Below, piece by piece: positions 8,079-26,765 of a DNA stretch of 45,706 nt. The notes under the pieces were generated by a model. The model saw nothing but the letters and a program-made list of their open reading frames with translations, had not been told where the DNA came from and searched no databases. The translations under genes were made by a program, and so were the position numbers. The stretch comes from Nitrospirota bacterium (GTDB lineage Bacteria > Nitrospirota > Nitrospiria > SBBL01 > JAADHI01). The stretch lies in NCBI GenBank assembly GCA_029261135.1, contig JAJDBX010000040.1:1-45706 (forward strand). The letters are read 5' to 3'. The stretch's first letter is position 1, and each line of letters begins with the position of its first letter.

Positions 8079-9365
8079 ATGAAGGCTCTGGTTATTGAAC
8101 CGACAAAAACATATCAAATCCTTCTTGATGTGCTATTAAAAGACCGTTCTTTTGAAACCACTTTGACCTCCTCAGGAAAAGAAGGGCTTGAACTCATACA
8201 AAAGGAGTCCTTTGATCTGGTTTGCACTGCCCTCTATTTATCGGATATGAGGGGCATTGATTTTTGTCAATCTCTACGCGCCGAAAATAACACAGGTATG
8301 ACTGTTGTGATGTTTACTTCAGAAGATAAAAAAGTAGTTTTTTCCGAAGGAAAGGCCGCAGGGATGACAGAGGTCTTTTTTAAAGAGGATCTTTTGTCGA
8401 TTACAAAATACCTCAGTACCTTCAAACCCCAGTCTTTGTCGGCCGATTTGCTGAGTGGGAAAATTTTATATCTTGAATCGGATCTTATCACTGCTGATTC
8501 AATACGAGATCAACTTTCTTCTCTTGGCCTAGAAATAGATCATGAAAAAAGTGCGAAAGCCGCGTACAAACGGTTCACTCAAATTGATTATGACCTATTG
8601 ATTGTAGATGTTTTACAGGATGGCCCTATGACCGGGGCAGAACTTGTCCGAGAAATCCGTCATAGTGATCTCGGCAATAAAAGCCTCTCAATTCTGGCGG
8701 TATCGCGTTTTGAGGATCAGACTCAAAAAGAAGAGGCATTTCGGACTGGCGTGGATGATTATGTGACGAAACCCATCATCAAAGAAGCCTTGTTTGCACG
8801 TGTTAAAAATTTGCTTACTTCTAAACAACTCCTTGAGCAAATTGAGACGCAGCAAGAAGACATGGAACAGATGGCGATGAAAGACATCCTCACTTCTTTG
8901 TACAGTCGAACTTACTTATCTGAGGTGGCACCGAAGTATATCAGTGAAGCGATTCGTCATCACTTTCCTTTAAGCATTATCCTGATTGACTTAGAGAATT
9001 TTAACCAGGTGAATCAGGTTCATGGCAAAAAAGAAAGTGATTTGGTTCTGGTTGCCGTGTCTGATCTCCTCAAAAAATTCTCTCGACAAGGGGATGTTGC
9101 GGCACGGCTGAAAGGAGAATTATTTCTCCTCATGCTCCCTTACTGTAGTGGGGAAAATGCGGCAGAAAAAGCGGATCTGCTCCGTCAGAAGATTGAAGGT
9201 TTGCACCCAAAGGAGATGACAATTACAGCGAGTTGTGGTGTTGTTCAGCTTTCCCTGGAAGGTCCATTGACTTCTGAAACGCTTTTTATGATGGCAGAAC
9301 AGGCACTTCAGGAAGCCAAAGAAAATGGCGGGAATCTCGTGATCTTAAAAAGTGACGTCGAATAA
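8079..9365 (+). CDS. REC-REC-GGDEF-like response regulator with degenerate signature
   Basis: Three domains are visible in 428 residues. Receiver 1 (about 1-120) lacks the phospho-acceptor Asp: the usual DLVLLD strand reads DLVCTA. Receiver 2 (about 127-250) keeps DLLIVDV and a KP pair (DDYVTKPI). A linker coiled coil (LLEQIETQQEDMEQMAMKD) leads to a GGDEF-fold domain (about 268-425) in which the signature is replaced by LKGELF. The start of that fold (DILTSLYSRTYL) and its last conserved block (ASCGVV...A..AL..AKENGGN) are intact. It is therefore unlikely to make c-di-GMP and may act as a ligand-binding or scaffolding regulator. It is convergent with the PilZ gene, four bases away. Confidence 0.85.
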   Translation: MKALVIEPTKTYQILLDVLLKDRSFETTLTSSGKEGLELIQKESFDLVCTALYLSDMRGIDFCQSLRAENNTGMTVVMFTSEDKKVVFSEGKAAGMTEVFFKEDLLSITKYLSTFKPQSLSADLLSGKILYLESDLITADSIRDQLSSLGLEIDHEKSAKAAYKRFTQIDYDLLIVDVLQDGPMTGAELVREIRHSDLGNKSLSILAVSRFEDQTQKEEAFRTGVDDYVTKPIIKEALFARVKNLLTSKQLLEQIETQQEDMEQMAMKDILTSLYSRTYLSEVAPKYISEAIRHHFPLSIILIDLENFNQVNQVHGKKESDLVLVAVSDLLKKFSRQGDVAARLKGELFLLMLPYCSGENAAEKADLLRQKIEGLHPKEMTITASCGVVQLSLEGPLTSETLFMMAEQALQEAKENGGNLVILKSDVE

Positions 9366-9369
9366 AAAC

Positions 9370-9705
9370 CTACTCGAATTGGTCCGCATATTGTAAATAA
9401 GAATAAAGCAAGGGATGGGCATCGTTTTTCAGTGAAGAAAAACGAATGCCGAATGCTGTAAAATTGCCATCTTGTTTCTCCCAGATAATTTCCCCATCCA
9501 CTGATTCGATGGCTTCTTTTCCTGAGCGTTGAGAAAAATGAATCTGAACCGAGGCCTTGCCCGCATCGACCAGATCTCGTGTAAATCCGCCGATTCCCCC
9601 AAAGGCAATATTCCCCCGCAGCAGGCTGATTTGTTGTTGATTCTCAAGGAAAACTTCCGTTCTGAGATGAAAGTTGCTCCGTATGCTCTCGCGTCGTTCA
9701 TTCAT
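9370..9705 (-). CDS. PilZ-domain protein (c-di-GMP receptor)
   Basis: PilZ proteins bind c-di-GMP through an RxxxR motif and a (D/N)xSxxG motif. This 111-residue protein opens with RRESIR, matching RxxxR, and has GNIAFGGIGGF in the position of the second motif, in which the Ser is replaced by Ala/Phe. The C-terminal half (GEIIWEKQDGNFTAFGIRF) matches the PilZ barrel strands. The Shine-Dalgarno GGGAG lies nine bases before the ATG. It is last in an apparent minus-strand cluster after the DUF420 membrane gene and faces the degenerate GGDEF gene. The nearby cyclases and pilT suggest motility or surface control, which is inference. Confidence 0.8.
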   Translation of the reverse strand: MNERRESIRSNFHLRTEVFLENQQQISLLRGNIAFGGIGGFTRDLVDAGKASVQIHFSQRSGKEAIESVDGEIIWEKQDGNFTAFGIRFSSLKNDAHPLLYSYLQYADQFE

Positions 9706-11608: not shown

Positions 11609-12961
11609 ATGGTGAAGGTCTTTATTATTGGTGCCGGAGAGGGAGGCAAGGCCGTACTCGGCCGTCTTCTTCAGTTTGACTGGTTCCAAATTGTCGGGGT
11701 GGCCGATCTCAACCCGGAGGCTCCCGCGATTCAGCTTGCGCGCGACGCACAACTCCCTATTTTTATAGAAGATCCCATTCCTCTCCTTCAGACCATGACG
11801 ATTGATCTTGTGTTTGATCTAACTGAAAATCCGAGAATCAGTCGCCAACTGGTTCAAATTTCAGAAAATAATTTTGATGTGGCAACGGGTGAGGTCGCCC
11901 ATGTCTTGTGGGATGTGATTCGAGAACTCGAAGAGCGAGAAAATCGCCTCAAACAAAAGTTGGGCGAAAACCAAATATTGCTTGATACGAGTCTCGTGCT
12001 TTCCCGCTCAGAAACGCCGGATGAAATTTTTGAGGCCATTGTTTCAGGCGGAATGCGGATTACAGGGATGCCGGCAGGTTCTCTCTCGGTGTATGACAAA
12101 CAAAAAAAACAACTATTTTTAGTGGCAACGAAAGGGCTGTCCTCTGAATTTTATAAAAATGCTGTTTATCCTGTTCGTACAGGGGGCTTGACCGAACATA
12201 TCCTTGCCAATAAAGATCCTCTCCTTATTCCAGATCTTGCAGATTTCCCCTCGTTTAACAACCCTGTTGTTTTGAAGGAAGGTATCCGTTCGCTGATCGC
12301 CATTCCCCTCATCGCAGAGAAAGGCCCGATTGGTATCTTATATAGCGATGATTTTGAACCGAAGCAATTTCCGCCGACATTGACAAATAGTCTTAAAATG
12401 CTGTCAACACAGGCTGTGATCGCCATTCAAAAACAGCAGGCATTTGAAAAGATCAAAGACCTCTCCATCCGTGATCCCTTGACCGGGCTTTACAATCGGC
12501 GATATTTGAATAAGGTACTCGCTTCAGAAATTGGCAGGGCCTCACGACTCAAGCATCCATTGTCGCTTTCCTTGTTTGATATTGATAACTTCAAGCAGGT
12601 CAATGATCGATATGGACATGTCACTGGAGATCATGTCCTGAAAGGTCTTTCAGAGTGTTTTGAATCGATGTTACGGCCCTACGATATCTTGTCCCGTTTT
12701 GGAGGAGAAGAATTTTTGATTCTGATGTCAGAGACTGGAAAAGAAGAGGCCATCGCATCTGCAGAGCGATTACGAAAAGCCGTCTCGGGTTTATCGCTTT
12801 TGCCTGATGGAGAAAGGGTGACCTGTAGTTTCGGCGTATGTACCTTATGGGATATTAAAAAAACCCCAACGACGCCGAAAACATTTATCGACTGTGCCGA
12901 TAAGGCGCTCTATCAAGCAAAACATGAAGGCCGAAATCGGGTCTGCCTCTACACGGATTAG
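11609..12961 (+). CDS. Diguanylate cyclase with N-terminal Rossmann domain and GAF domain
   Basis: The 450-residue protein should make c-di-GMP from GTP. Residues 1-105 form a dinucleotide-binding domain (VFIIGAGEGGKAVL, then QIVGVADLNPEAPAIQLAR and DLVFDLTENP) followed by a short coiled coil. A GAF sensor spans about 125-280. The GGDEF domain (about 285-450) is intact: DPLTGLYNRRYL, FDIDNFKQVND, the signature GGEEF at 365-369, and an inhibitory I-site RPYD five residues before it. The N-terminal domain aligns well with that of the sigma-54 activator at 24464-25771, so both may read the same signal, perhaps NAD(P)(H) or redox state (inference). Confidence 0.88.
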   Translation: MVKVFIIGAGEGGKAVLGRLLQFDWFQIVGVADLNPEAPAIQLARDAQLPIFIEDPIPLLQTMTIDLVFDLTENPRISRQLVQISENNFDVATGEVAHVLWDVIRELEERENRLKQKLGENQILLDTSLVLSRSETPDEIFEAIVSGGMRITGMPAGSLSVYDKQKKQLFLVATKGLSSEFYKNAVYPVRTGGLTEHILANKDPLLIPDLADFPSFNNPVVLKEGIRSLIAIPLIAEKGPIGILYSDDFEPKQFPPTLTNSLKMLSTQAVIAIQKQQAFEKIKDLSIRDPLTGLYNRRYLNKVLASEIGRASRLKHPLSLSLFDIDNFKQVNDRYGHVTGDHVLKGLSECFESMLRPYDILSRFGGEEFLILMSETGKEEAIASAERLRKAVSGLSLLPDGERVTCSFGVCTLWDIKKTPTTPKTFIDCADKALYQAKHEGRNRVCLYTD

Positions 12962-22364: not shown

Positions 22365-22685
22365 TTAATTAAAGGATTGTCCACAACCGCAGGTTGTTTT
22401 TGCATTCGGGTTTTTAATCGAAAACCCGGCATTCTGCAGATCATCAAGATAGTCCACTTCTGTGCCCGTCAACATTGGCGCACTGAATGGATCGACAAAA
22501 AGCTTCAAGCCATGCATTTCAACGACATCATCTTCCTCATTGTTACTTTCTTCAAAGGCCATTCCGTATTGAAAGCCCGAACAACCCCCGCCCTCGACGT
22601 ATACACGTAGGCCAAAACCGGCCTTGTCTTCAGCAGACATAATCTCTTTCACCTTCTCGCTGGCACGCTCAGTAATAATTACCAT
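22365..22685 (-). CDS. erpA: Iron-sulfur cluster insertion protein, ErpA/IscA family
   Basis: An A-type carrier that delivers [4Fe-4S] or [2Fe-2S] clusters to target enzymes. The 106-residue protein has the three conserved cluster cysteines: Cys35 in EGGGCSGFQYGM, and Cys99 and Cys101 in TTCGCGQSF. FVDPFSAPMLTGTEVDYLDDLQNAGF is the usual central block (DP...L.G...DY). AGGAGG precedes the ATG by five bases, and an extended -10 promoter lies just upstream. Many Fe-S enzymes in the window (MiaB, MtaB, NuoF-like, ferredoxin) are plausible clients, though that is general inference. Confidence 0.93.
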   Translation of the reverse strand: MVIITERASEKVKEIMSAEDKAGFGLRVYVEGGGCSGFQYGMAFEESNNEEDDVVEMHGLKLFVDPFSAPMLTGTEVDYLDDLQNAGFSIKNPNAKTTCGCGQSFN

Positions 22686-22748: not shown

Positions 22749-22799
22749 TAAAAAAATCTCTCAAGCCTAGATTTTACTTAAGAAACGGGCTGAGGGATT
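22749..22799 (-). terminator. Intrinsic terminator at the end of the NuoF-like gene
   Basis: On the minus strand AATCCCTCAGCC (22799-22788) pairs with GGCTTGAGAGATT (22767-22755), with one mismatch and one bulge, then runs into TTTTTTA. The stem includes the last codons of the gene. Confidence 0.6.
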
Positions 22800-24082
22800 A
22801 ATGGACATTGGCCTGCTTCCACATGTGTTTCAAATTCGTTCCGGAAATGTTTCAAAATGCTCTCAACCGCTATGGCCGCACCGGTTAGCAGAAAGCATTG
22901 TCCTCTTCCTTTGACCATGCCGCAGGCTTGATCGACTTGGGCGATATCTGCTGCATCGCCTTGGCCTGCTTCTATCTTTTCAAGAATTTCTGCAATATGA
23001 ACTGTGCCCAGTTTACAAGGAGGGCATTGCCCGCAACTCTCTTTCGCAAAAAAACGGGCATACTGAATCGCAACTTGAAGCATGCAAACGTCTTCTGATA
23101 TCACAATGACCGCGCCTGTGCCAAGACCTGTTCCTGCTGCTTTTAAAGCATCAAAATCAAGTGGTATATTGACTTGATCTCTTGGAATGACAGGCACAGA
23201 AGGCCCTCCCGGAAATACTGCTTTCAGAATTTTCCCTTCTTTAATCCCACCCCCGCAGTCTGTGATGAGTGTTTGAAGGGATGTGCCCAGCGGGCGTTCA
23301 TAAAGACCAGGACGATTTACATCACCAGTTAATGTGAAAATCATCGTGCCCGGAGAGGTTTCGCTTCCTATGGCCTTAAATGCTTTGCCGCCGTCTCGAA
23401 CAATAAAAGGCACATTGGACAAGGTTTCTGCATTGTTGACCACCGTGGGCTTCCCATAGAGTCCGTGCATTGATGGGTAATACGGTGGTTTTTGGCGCGG
23501 CGCTGCAACCTTACCTTCAATGACCTCCAGCAATGCCGTTTCTTCCCCGGCGACATAAGATCCCGGGCTTTGGCAGATCTTTAATGTGATCCCTGTGTCT
23601 GATTTTTCAGAGGCCTCACCCCAATGTCCCTGGGCTTTTGAAATCTGAAGGGCCTCTTCCATAAATTGAATCTCTTCAGGGTAACGACAATTGATAAAAA
23701 GGTAGGCCTCATCGGCCCCTGTTGCATATGCAGAAAGAAGTACCCCTTCAATCAGCTGATGTGGACTGGAACGGAGCAGATAACGATCTTTAAATGTGCC
23801 GGGTTCATCCTCTGCGGCATTGCAGCAAAGATAACGTTTCCCTGGCTTTTGCTGGATGACCATGTCCCACTTTTTCCAAGTAGGAAAACCCGCCCCGCCC
23901 CGACCACGAAGCGCGGAAGTCTTCACGGCGTCTCTAACGCCGGAAGGTCCCAATACTTTGATCGCCTTCCTTAGGCTGCCATAACCTCCCTTTGTGACAT
24001 AATCTTCATAAGACAAAGGAGAGACAGAGAGCAGCGCATCTAAGGGGACATCACGCTCCGTTAAGATCCTTTTTTCTTCCAA
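22778..24082 (-). CDS. NuoF-like NADH-oxidising flavoprotein with one [4Fe-4S] site
   Basis: This is the FMN/NADH-binding diaphorase subunit type found in complex I (NuoF), NAD-linked hydrogenases and formate dehydrogenases. The 434 residues have the FMN/NADH loop GRGGAGFPT at 60-68, NAAEDEPGTFKDR, GSYVAGEETALLEVIEG, and the SLBB-type region. The Fe-S motif is CGQCPPC (Cys350, 353, 356) with the fourth ligand Cys396 in GRGQC. No NuoE or NuoG lies nearby, and the gene follows a zinc-ribbon gene behind a sigma-54 promoter. An accessory diaphorase rather than core complex I seems likely. The TTG start is six bases after AAGGA. Confidence 0.9.
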   Translation of the reverse strand: MEEKRILTERDVPLDALLSVSPLSYEDYVTKGGYGSLRKAIKVLGPSGVRDAVKTSALRGRGGAGFPTWKKWDMVIQQKPGKRYLCCNAAEDEPGTFKDRYLLRSSPHQLIEGVLLSAYATGADEAYLFINCRYPEEIQFMEEALQISKAQGHWGEASEKSDTGITLKICQSPGSYVAGEETALLEVIEGKVAAPRQKPPYYPSMHGLYGKPTVVNNAETLSNVPFIVRDGGKAFKAIGSETSPGTMIFTLTGDVNRPGLYERPLGTSLQTLITDCGGGIKEGKILKAVFPGGPSVPVIPRDQVNIPLDFDALKAAGTGLGTGAVIVISEDVCMLQVAIQYARFFAKESCGQCPPCKLGTVHIAEILEKIEAGQGDAADIAQVDQACGMVKGRGQCFLLTGAAIAVESILKHFRNEFETHVEAGQCPLIPQPVS

Positions 24083-24110: not shown

Positions 24111-24302
24111 TTAATAAGACATCAACTTCCGATTTCTTGCTTGGTGGTGAGGTCGATTTTCTCGATTTGAACAGATCTCAGGATCAAGGATTTCTCCACA
24201 GGACATGCAGCGATATCCGCTAAAAGAAAGCTCTCCTGTGTCACTTCTCAAATCTTCGAACTTCTGAGGCACCATAAAACCACTGCACCTTGGACAACTC
24301 AT
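24111..24302 (-). CDS. Small zinc-ribbon protein
   Basis: A 63-residue protein with two CXXC knuckles: CPRC at residues 3-6 and CMSC at about 32-35, the second in the context RCMSCGEILDPEI. This suggests a single zinc-ribbon fold with a basic tail (NRENRPHHQARNRK) that might bind nucleic acid or a protein partner. AGGAGG lies six bases before the ATG, and a consensus sigma-54 promoter is 47 bases upstream. The NuoF-like gene begins 28 bases after its stop, so the two are probably co-expressed. The function is unknown; it could help maturation or regulation of the diaphorase. Confidence 0.8.
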   Translation of the reverse strand: MSCPRCSGFMVPQKFEDLRSDTGELSFSGYRCMSCGEILDPEICSNRENRPHHQARNRKLMSY

Positions 24303-24348: not shown

Positions 24349-24364
24349 AGCAAATAACGTGCCA
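24349..24364 (-). promoter_or_regulatory. Consensus sigma-54 (-24/-12) promoter for zinc-ribbon and NuoF-like genes
   Basis: On the minus strand TGGCACG-TTAT-TTGCT matches the RpoN consensus TGGCACG-N4-TTGCW at every defined position. The predicted start is near 24338, about 36 bases before the zinc-ribbon ATG. A sigma-54 activator gene ends 100 bases upstream. No clear inverted-repeat enhancer site was recognised between them. Confidence 0.8.
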
Positions 24365-24463
24365 TAAATAAAACAAAGCGATTCCCTATAAAATCAAACG
24401 CTTCTGGTTATTATTTCAAGATACATTGTTTTAAAGTGAAACACAAGCCTTAATATTGTTCAG

Positions 24464-25771
24464 TTATGAAACGATATTTGGTTTTGTTAAGCCGTAGACT
24501 TTAATCTTTCTCCAGAGTGTTGTTCGGCTCATTTTTAGTTTTTCAGAAGTTTTTTTATAGTTCCATTTTGTCTGATTGAGTACATTTACAATCAGCTCCT
24601 CTTCCATGGCTTGCAGAGGATCTTCATTTTCTACGACTTTGTTGATGACATTTTGGGCGGTCGGCTGAATTTCTTTTTGTAAATGTTCTGATTCGAGGAT
24701 GTCTCCATCGCAGAAGACCATTGCATGCTCAACGATATTTTCTAGCTCTCGAATATTCCCGGGAAAGTCATATCCGAGTAGGATATTCATGACATCCGGT
24801 GCAACCTGTCTGACCTTTCTTCCCATTTCTTTATTGAACCGAAGAATAAAGTGATCCACGAGAAGCGGGATATCGTCTTTCCGCTCTCGTAAAGGCGGGA
24901 GTAAAATGGGGACGACTTTGAGTCGATAGTAGAGATCATGTCGAAATTCCCCGGCTTCGACGGCTTTTTTCAGATCTTTATTTGTTGCCGCGATCATACG
25001 AACATCCACCTTAATCCGCCGTGCATCTCCTACCTTTTCAATTTCCCCATCCTGCACAACACGCAGTAGTTTGGCCTGTGTTGCCAATGTCATTTCAGCA
25101 ATTTCGTCCAAAAATATTGTTCCGCCATCCGCTAACTCAAATCGCCCAAGCTTATGTGAAATGGCTCCGGTAAAAGCACCCCGGACATGCCCGAAGAGCT
25201 CACTTTCCAGTAGGTTTTCTGCTAAGGCAGCGCAATTGACGCGAATAAAGGCTTTGTCTTCACGTGTGCTGTACTGATGGATGGAATGTGCGACCAATTC
25301 TTTGCCGGTGCCGCTTTCTCCTCCAATTAACACGGTGGCTTTTGTCTTTGCAATCTTCGGAATCAGGTCATAGATTGCCTCCATTTTTTCATTCTTCCCG
25401 ATCATGTTCTCAAAAGAATAACGTTGCCGAATGGTCTCCCGCAGCATCTTGCTCTTGATGCGTTCCTCAATCAATTGCCACATGAATTTAGCGGCAAGGC
25501 CACCTATGACTTCAATGCCATCGCTTTCTTTCTCAAGGGCGTCTCGAACGGTGTTGTTGCCGGTGACATCGATAATCAGGTCGACGTCACCTTGCAGGAG
25601 ATCGTGATAATCGCCCACGGCTCGAATTTTGTGGCGACGCGCAAGGTCAAGCCCGGGTGCTTTTACATAGGGATCCGCAATCCCAACAATTTGAACGAGG
25701 GGATCTTTGTGTAGGATCTCGATGAGTGCAGTGCCTCCTTTTCCGGCACCGATAATAACGAGTTTGGTCAA
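24464..25771 (-). CDS. Sigma-54-dependent activator with N-terminal Rossmann sensor domain
   Basis: A bacterial enhancer-binding protein that remodels RpoN polymerase. Residues 1-105 form a dinucleotide-binding Rossmann domain (LVIIGAGKGGTAL, QIVGIADPYVKAPGLDLAR, DLIIDVTGNN) where a receiver or GAF domain is usual. The AAA+ domain follows (about 120-360): Walker A GESGTGKE at 151-158, the sigma-54 contact loop GAFTGA at 198-203, and Walker B GTIFLDEI at 217-224. A Fis-type helix-turn-helix ends the protein (KTSEKLKMSRTTLWRKIKVYG). The TTG start follows AAGGA by nine bases. It lies 55 bases after mdh, upstream of the sigma-54 promoter it probably controls. Confidence 0.92.
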   Translation of the reverse strand: MTKLVIIGAGKGGTALIEILHKDPLVQIVGIADPYVKAPGLDLARRHKIRAVGDYHDLLQGDVDLIIDVTGNNTVRDALEKESDGIEVIGGLAAKFMWQLIEERIKSKMLRETIRQRYSFENMIGKNEKMEAIYDLIPKIAKTKATVLIGGESGTGKELVAHSIHQYSTREDKAFIRVNCAALAENLLESELFGHVRGAFTGAISHKLGRFELADGGTIFLDEIAEMTLATQAKLLRVVQDGEIEKVGDARRIKVDVRMIAATNKDLKKAVEAGEFRHDLYYRLKVVPILLPPLRERKDDIPLLVDHFILRFNKEMGRKVRQVAPDVMNILLGYDFPGNIRELENIVEHAMVFCDGDILESEHLQKEIQPTAQNVINKVVENEDPLQAMEEELIVNVLNQTKWNYKKTSEKLKMSRTTLWRKIKVYGLTKPNIVS

Positions 25772-25826: not shown

Positions 25827-26765
25827 CTAGAGGACTTCGTCAACAACTTTACAAAGGCCCTGCACGGTTTTTGCGGAAGACAGAAGTCCCTCTGCTTCTT
25901 CCGTTGTCAGATTGATTTCAAGGATATGCTCTATCCCTTGATTGCCCAGCTTGACGGGAACCCCGACAAAAACATCTTCAAGTTTGTATTCCCCTTTGCA
26001 CAGAGCCGAACAAGGAAGGATTTTTTTCTTGTCTTTTAGAATCGCTTCGATCATTTCGATAATGGCCGCAGAGGGGGCATAGTACGCCGAGCCGGTTTTC
26101 AGCAGTTTAACGATTTCCGCCCCACCATCTCGCGTGCGTTGAACTATTGTCTCCAGGCGGTCTTTTGAAATCAGCTCCAGAATCGGTACCCCCGACACCG
26201 TTGTATAACGTGTGAGTGGTACCATGCTGTCGCCATGTCCTCCTAGTACAAGGGTTTGGATATTCTCGACCGAAACATTCAGTTCCATGGACAAAAAAGC
26301 GCTAAAACGTGCGGCATCGAGTACCCCGGCCATCCCAATGACTCGTTCTTTATTAAAACCGCTGACCTTATGTGCAACGTAAGTCATGGCATCCAGCGGG
26401 TTCGAAACCACAATCAAGATCGCATCCGGTGATTTTTCGACTGTTTTTCCCGTGACCTCTTTTACAATTTTTGCATTGACACGCAAAAGATCATCCCGGC
26501 TCATTCCGGGCTTTCTGGGCAGACCCGAGGTAATCACGACGATATCTGAATTTGTTGTGGCCGCGTAATCGGCGTCACCGATTACGCGGCTATTGTATCC
26601 ATAAATGGGTGCGGTTTCAGAAAGATCAAGCGCCTTCCCTTTGGGCATATCCGAATCGAGATCGATCAGAACAACATCCGCTATTTCTTTTTCTGCGAGA
26701 CGTTGGGCTGCGGTTGCGCCAACATGTCCTGCCCCAACGATGGTGACCTTATTTCGTTTTAGCAT
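25827..26765 (-). CDS. mdh: Malate dehydrogenase
   Basis: NAD-dependent oxidation of malate to oxaloacetate in the TCA cycle. The 312-residue protein belongs to the LDH-like MDH group. It has the NAD loop GAGHVGATAA at about 11-20, the ribose-binding Asp (VLIDLDSD), the substrate loop GLPRKPGMSRDDLL in which Arg, rather than the Gln of lactate dehydrogenases, indicates dicarboxylate specificity, VVSNPLDAMTYVA, and the catalytic His in LGGHGDSMVP. GAGGG precedes the ATG. It heads a probable operon with the Rossmann-sigma-54 activator, and a DASS-type carrier gene lies 1 kb upstream. Confidence 0.95.
   Translation of the reverse strand: MLKRNKVTIVGAGHVGATAAQRLAEKEIADVVLIDLDSDMPKGKALDLSETAPIYGYNSRVIGDADYAATTNSDIVVITSGLPRKPGMSRDDLLRVNAKIVKEVTGKTVEKSPDAILIVVSNPLDAMTYVAHKVSGFNKERVIGMAGVLDAARFSAFLSMELNVSVENIQTLVLGGHGDSMVPLTRYTTVSGVPILELISKDRLETIVQRTRDGGAEIVKLLKTGSAYYAPSAAIIEMIEAILKDKKKILPCSALCKGEYKLEDVFVGVPVKLGNQGIEHILEINLTTEEAEGLLSSAKTVQGLCKVVDEVL

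Follow-up and report, generated by a model that had tools for sequence, protein, structure and literature searches.

The window, i.e. the whole 45,706-nucleotide stretch of the Nitrospirota bacterium contig JAJDBX010000040.1 analysed here, carries two signalling genes whose products begin with similar domains, a Rossmann-GAF-GGDEF protein and a Rossmann-sigma-54 activator, both found at the positions and on the strands given in a preliminary description of this DNA (Table 1). The activator, in which Pfam also detects a lid domain at residues 295-373, has the features of a sigma-54 enhancer-binding protein, namely an AAA+ domain with Walker A motif and GAFTGA loop, a Fis-type helix-turn-helix (HTH) and, upstream of the -24/-12 promoter of a linked gene, a conserved dyad. 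The other protein bears the GGDEF/GGEEF signature in its GGDEF domain and is a predicted diguanylate cyclase, with an intact RxxD site (RPYD) read from the sequence five residues ahead of GGEEF. Its gene is adjoined by genes for REC-REC-GGDEF and PilZ proteins (window positions 8079-9705), with DUF420 and O-methyltransferase genes in between; this gene order is kept in another locus (L035), suggesting a c-di-GMP neighbourhood.

Table 1. Features of the two Rossmann-sensor genes and of the activator locus (positions are those of the window).
Feature	Position	Strand	Remarks
Rossmann-GAF-GGDEF protein, 450 aa	11609..12961	+	GGEEF active-site motif read from sequence
Rossmann sensor domain, N-terminus of the GGDEF protein, residues 1-111	11609..11941	+	Mean pLDDT 88.6, pTM 0.82
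GAF domain, residues 135-274	12011..12430	+	Pfam GAF_2 5.5e-15
GGDEF domain, residues 287-444	12467..12940	+	Pfam 8.9e-43
Conserved Fe-S_biosyn (ErpA/IscA-like) protein, encoded downstream of nuoF-like	22365..22685	-	
NuoF-like NADH/FMN/4Fe-4S flavoprotein, 434 aa, predicted target	22778..24082	-	NuoF family, below equivalog cut-off
First gene of the predicted target operon, for a zinc-ribbon-like protein of 63 aa (CxxC...CxxC)	24111..24302	-	
Predicted sigma-54 promoter (-24/-12) TGGCACGTTATTTGC, between the activator and Zn-ribbon genes	24350..24364	-	
Predicted upstream activating dyad TGTTTCACTTTAAAACA, which begins 79 bp ahead of the -24 element; consensus TGTTTC-N5-GAAACA	24427..24443	-	
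Rossmann-sigma-54 activator, 435 aa	24464..25771	-	TTG start, AAGGA upstream
Fis-type DNA-binding HTH, residues 388-426	24494..24610	-	HTH_8 2.7e-10
AAA+ sigma-54 interaction domain, residues 123-289	24905..25405	-	Sigma54_activat; Walker A and GAFTGA loop intact
Rossmann sensor domain, N-terminus of the activator, residues 1-108	25448..25771	-	Mean pLDDT 91.2, pTM 0.85
NAD-dependent malate dehydrogenase, 55 bp upstream of the activator, conserved	25827..26765	-	TIGR01763 above cut-off

The preliminary description had claimed that the first ~105 residues of the two proteins align, and every motif that it listed was found. By BLASTP, the two N-termini share 38 of 106 residues (36%) with an E-value of 5e-16 over their full length. 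Knowing that Rossmann domains are abundant and commonly possess a GxGxxG loop, and that many NAD families score weakly against both N-termini, one might attribute this likeness to the generic fold or to the shared glycine-rich motif, without kinship. This explanation is hardly credible in view of the full-length pairwise E-value and of a non-circular test, in which one HMM was built from sigma-54 activators outside Nitrospirota only, another from Bacillota chemoreceptors only, and both were searched against all window open reading frames of at least 60 residues. The first HMM retrieved the activator (4.2e-34) and the GGDEF protein (1.4e-23), the second did likewise (2.3e-25 and 1.6e-22, respectively), and neither matched any other window frame, including that of the malate dehydrogenase, a true Rossmann enzyme. 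Chance resemblance of glycine-rich loops is ruled out by these non-circular profiles, which select exactly these two proteins and assign them to one family, not to two unrelated ones. On the strength of this sequence evidence, we regard the two N-termini as homologous copies of a single family of soluble Rossmann domains of ~105 residues, the last helix of which continues, in both window proteins, into the signalling output.

A third copy of the domain occurs in the same genome, on another contig, where it is fused to HisKA_3 and HATPase domains (a NarX-type kinase) and followed by a NarL-type regulator. Within Nitrospirota, matches at 1e-6 occur in 75 of the 148 genomes, a count whose lowest-scoring rows are not sensors and should not be counted. 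One weak match of this phylum, a 309-residue protein (L107), was rejected as a sensor, as it looks like a true Gfo/Idh enzyme. A scan of contigs yielded 60 loci, the records of which are labelled Nitrospirota, Rokubacteria, Methylomirabilota, Acidobacteria, Calditrichaeota, Deltaproteobacteria, Nitrospinota, Hydrogenophilales and Syntrophomonadaceae, and deeper sampling found the domain in the phyla of the Syntrophomonadaceae record (61/199 genomes), the Rokubacteria record (24/95), the Hydrogenophilales record (93/249) and an Acidobacteria record (10/199). The domain recurs in at least six phyla.

The kinase outputs comprise NarX-type kinases, HisKA kinases and GAF/PAS-HisKA-REC-REC-GGDEF hybrids; the others are sigma-54 activators with or without PAS, GGDEF proteins with or without GAF or PAS, soluble chemoreceptors of ~300 residues, a Fis-HTH form devoid of AAA+ and stand-alone forms (L099, L108, L106 and L089), the outputs of distant members being assigned partly by motif patterns with hand corrections, and those of representatives being confirmed by Pfam. 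On a tree of 101 domains, which is short (107 columns) and has many unresolved forks, the output label requires nine changes (minimum 5), and one clade, starred in the tree, joins the kinase and sigma-54 copies of Nitrospiria and separates them from the sigma-54 copies found in other phyla. The nine output changes and the mixed clade mark this as domain shuffling, not as a single protein lineage. We consider it nearly certain, from these comparisons, that the domain is a modular Rossmann sensor, one input domain serving many signalling outputs. The earlier suggestion of a modular input domain with different outputs, drawn from the two window copies, has strong support in this one family with at least five output classes in several phyla. 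A recent local duplication as the source of the two window copies is unsupported, since the domain tree places them on separate branches; for this reason, and as the third copy resides on another contig, the 14-kb closeness of the two genes seems incidental.

AlphaFold models of the two domains, built on alignments of 52 (activator) and 31 (GGDEF copy) sequences, predict a Rossmann domain, in which strands alternate with helices and a long final helix leads into the output. The glycine-rich loop that had been likened to those of NAD(P)-binding folds is thus seen in predicted structures that are complete Rossmann domains, together with an acidic residue at the end of strand 2. The best structural match of the activator domain is the acylating acetaldehyde dehydrogenase 4lrs (Z 12.8, 2.1 A over 100 residues), which also matches the GGDEF copy (Z 12.0); Gfo/Idh enzymes in complex with NAD are also among the best matches, and Rex proteins match the sensor-domain models with Z 10.1-10.6. 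The matches of the GGDEF copy include formyltransferases and PurK/PurT-type folds, so that the ligand cannot be read from the fold alone. Among 52 diverse members, G8, G10 and T70 are invariant (52/52 each), G13 and W98 are each present in 51/52, and position 33, which ends strand 2, is always acidic (D in 32, E in 20); the GGDEF copy has a glutamate at the conserved G71 (TEN vs TGN). In Rossmann enzymes, the GxGxxG loop and an acidic residue ending strand 2 fit NAD(H) better than NADP(H), and this D/E residue binds the adenosine ribose in NAD enzymes.

The nearest Pfam and NCBIfam families of the N-termini are Gfo/Idh/MocA, homoserine dehydrogenase, DapB and acylating acetaldehyde dehydrogenase, mostly with scores below cut-off. 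The activator copy exceeds a single curated NAD-binding cut-off, that of NAD_binding_3 (24 bits), and does so as a full-length protein (26.9 bits) but not as an isolated domain (19.5 bits); the GGDEF copy lies under every curated Pfam NAD-binding cut-off; and, among the relatives, the kinase copy (27.1 bits) and a chemoreceptor (L142, 33.1 bits) exceed the GFO_IDH_MocA cut-off (24 bits). The best relatives by sequence and structure, i.e. acylating acetaldehyde dehydrogenases (DmpF/BphJ) and Gfo/Idh/MocA proteins, share with the domain a D-x-x-[AS]-x-G-[LI]-x-x-A motif after strand 2. Unlike these enzymes, the window proteins score far under the enzyme-model cut-offs, and in place of the C-terminal catalytic domain of Gfo/Idh/MocA, homoserine or acetaldehyde dehydrogenases they have signalling outputs, GAF-GGDEF or AAA+-HTH. 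These resemblances indicate that the sensor domain is derived from dehydrogenase-type domains.

Rex, a redox-sensing repressor whose Rossmann domain responds to NADH/NAD+, resembles this sensor family in using an enzyme-free Rossmann domain as regulator input, and the two are linked by a weak sequence match (5zz5, 6.8e-4). They differ in that the Rossmann domain of Rex is C-terminal to a DNA-binding winged helix, whereas that of the sensor family stands at the N-terminus, ahead of a kinase, GGDEF, chemoreceptor or AAA+ output; in neither window protein is a winged-helix domain (PF06971) joined to the Rossmann domain. The outputs and plug-in logic are those of the PAS-, GAF- or receiver-domain sigma-54 activators, kinases and diguanylate cyclases, which differ in the fold of the input. 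A Rossmann-type input had been called unusual; the inputs listed in a survey of 431 Clostridiales activators comprise PAS, GAF, HPr, PrpR_N, ACT, CBS, Fe-S, V4R and receiver domains, with no Rossmann domain (PMC6615313). There is nevertheless a precedent on a sigma-54 activator: RtcR possesses a Rossmann-like N-terminal CARF input, which was reported to bind the RtcAB proteins (PMC9650030), though CARF is a different family, with no detected relation to the sensor domain. A full-text search of the open-licence literature returned no published description of the sensor domain, on which the sigma-54 regulon surveys consulted are silent. The domain therefore apparently constitutes an as yet undescribed family of modular inputs on known outputs, though superfamily-level labels (NAD(P)-binding Rossmann) for it may exist in other databases.

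As regards the genes that the activator may control, the activator gene is immediately preceded by the malate dehydrogenase gene in 10 related loci, in eight of which it is followed by the Zn-ribbon and NuoF-like genes, in that order; of the other two, one ends inside the activator (L083) and one has a broken order (L080). The promoter pattern TGGCAY-N5-TTGC is kept in 8/9 orthologous intergenic regions, and a TGTTTC-N5-GAAACA dyad, or a degenerate variant of it, occurs ~80-100 bp upstream of the promoter in 9/9. The order malate dehydrogenase gene, activator, predicted dyad and sigma-54 promoter, Zn-ribbon gene and nuoF-like gene is thus a conserved arrangement as read from these sequences. 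Taken alone, the sigma-54 promoter could be due to chance (0.27 expected in the window), but its combination with the dyad is not. The genome contains 27 promoter-like sites vs 10 in the control; a dyad with 11 of the 12 positions, starting 78-79 bp upstream, accompanies only two of these 27, the others reaching at most nine positions; and the combined pattern has two matches in the 3.2-Mb genome vs none in the control. The second genomic site (G000:C56:8423-8515, + strand) precedes a gene for an 87-residue membrane-type protein (L198:8565-8828), which matches no family. In 15 relatives, the strict combined pattern occurs twice (G158 and G161), each time ahead of a gene for a homologue of this 87-residue protein (59% and 36% identity). 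We read this as a putative two-operon regulon of the Rossmann activator, composed of the nuoF-like operon and the small membrane protein gene, and we infer from the linkage that the activator binds the dyad. The matches of the predicted NuoF-like target (1e-105 to 1e-95) are NADH-binding subunits, namely those of bifurcating hydrogenases, NfnB and complex I; the 63-residue CxxC protein (MSCPRCSGFMV...) has no Pfam or NCBIfam match. A paralogue of the latter is encoded upstream of the malate dehydrogenase gene in another locus (L082, position 2591).

We propose that the Rossmann sensor binds NAD(H), a reading to which we assign a probability of roughly 0.6. The acidic residue at the end of strand 2 speaks for NAD(H) rather than NADP(H), and indirect support comes from the gene context of the activator and from the absence of Rex. 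Indeed, the N-terminal family of Rex (PF06971) was found in 0/40 Nitrospiria genomes, vs 7/14 control genomes positive in the same search, so that Nitrospiria seem to lack this standard NADH sensor; it was also not found in the source genome. Against NAD(H) stand the scores of the two window copies at the Pfam NAD-binding families, the varied structural matches of the GGDEF copy and its glutamate at G71. Moreover, the genes next to the kinase versions (glyA-nrdR) and the GGDEF versions (methyltransferase-DUF420) are not NAD genes. More broadly, the genes near the kinase copies (glyA, nrdR, NarL regulator and glycogen enzymes) and the GGDEF copies (O-methyltransferase, DUF420 and PurK/PurE-like) give no NAD-specific clue to the ligand, and those near the activators of Methylomirabilota and Acidobacteriota include no informative shared gene.

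The same modular domain might instead sense another ligand, such as CoA or acyl-CoA, another nucleotide or a metabolite. The Rossmann pocket of DmpF-type enzymes (acylating acetaldehyde dehydrogenases) accepts both NAD and CoA, and these enzymes are the closest sequence relatives of the domain (7z3s, 1.9e-8; TIGR03215 matches 43/52 members), 14/52 members also matching the CoA_binding family. We judge this rather unlikely, as the acidic, ribose-binding residue of NAD enzymes is invariant at the end of strand 2, and as the neighbours and predicted targets of the activator are NAD(H) proteins, not acyl-CoA enzymes. It is less likely still that the domain binds no small molecule and serves for dimerisation or for docking a partner protein, in the manner of the RtcR CARF domain docking RtcAB (PMC9650030), even though this precedent also concerns a sigma-54 activator, the segment AKFMWQLIEER, which contains W98, is highly conserved, and the domain exists in stand-alone forms. 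The glycine-rich loop and D/E33 are kept over several phyla and all outputs, which would be needless for pure docking, and kinases, GGDEF proteins, chemoreceptors and activators would all need to share the same partners.

From the observed family relationship, fold, conserved residues and promoter architecture, we infer the following mechanism, in which the ligand, the dimerisation, the sign of the response and the target binding are the proposed elements. The domain would bind NAD(H), probably as a dimer, and the NADH/NAD+ state would shift the setting of its last helix (residues 91-107, AKFMWQLIEERI), which would pass on the signal by continuing without a break into the output's signalling helix. 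For the activator, such a helix change would free or block the AAA+ ring, which would bind the TGTTTC-N5-GAAACA dyads and drive sigma-54-dependent transcription of two targets, the small membrane protein gene and that for the nuoF-like flavoprotein. In the GGDEF protein, the NADH state would tune c-di-GMP synthesis via the GAF domain; the output tuned by the third copy would be a NarX/NarL-type phosphorelay.

The intracellular NADH/NAD+ ratio is a central signal, for which, to our knowledge, few dedicated sensors are known. More tentatively, at somewhat less than even odds, the domain could be a general bacterial NADH/NAD+ module, the equivalent of PAS where the dinucleotide pool is concerned, which would connect redox state to sigma-54 regulation, two-component systems, c-di-GMP and chemotaxis, replace Rex in Nitrospiria and control the adjacent gene for an NADH-binding flavoprotein. 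If true, such a plug-in sensor would explain how seemingly Rex-less lineages, e.g. Nitrospiria, couple their gene expression and behaviour to redox state. The activator, for which two targets are predicted and the dyad is defined, makes this idea directly testable.

Several other members of the family are worth describing. The Rossmann kinase gene follows glyA and nrdR in many Nitrospirota genomes (e.g. L048, L052 and L071), and it is paired with a gene for a NarL-type regulator in 26/27 loci. Two further Nitrospirota proteins (L094:393-3848 and L105:1168-4506) are single chains of ~1,100 residues, in which the Rossmann domain is followed by GAF, PAS, HisKA, HATPase, two receivers and GGDEF. 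In L166:1180-2052, the domain is directly fused to a Fis-type HTH, with no AAA+ domain, making this protein an apparent direct transcription factor. Finally, the chemoreceptors from the phylum of the Syntrophomonadaceae record (L134-L152) and from that of an Acidobacteria record (L228, L230 and L233) are soluble proteins of ~220-310 residues, in which the Rossmann domain is the only visible input, while two chemoreceptors of ~490 residues (L142 and L149) have an extra, unassigned middle part.
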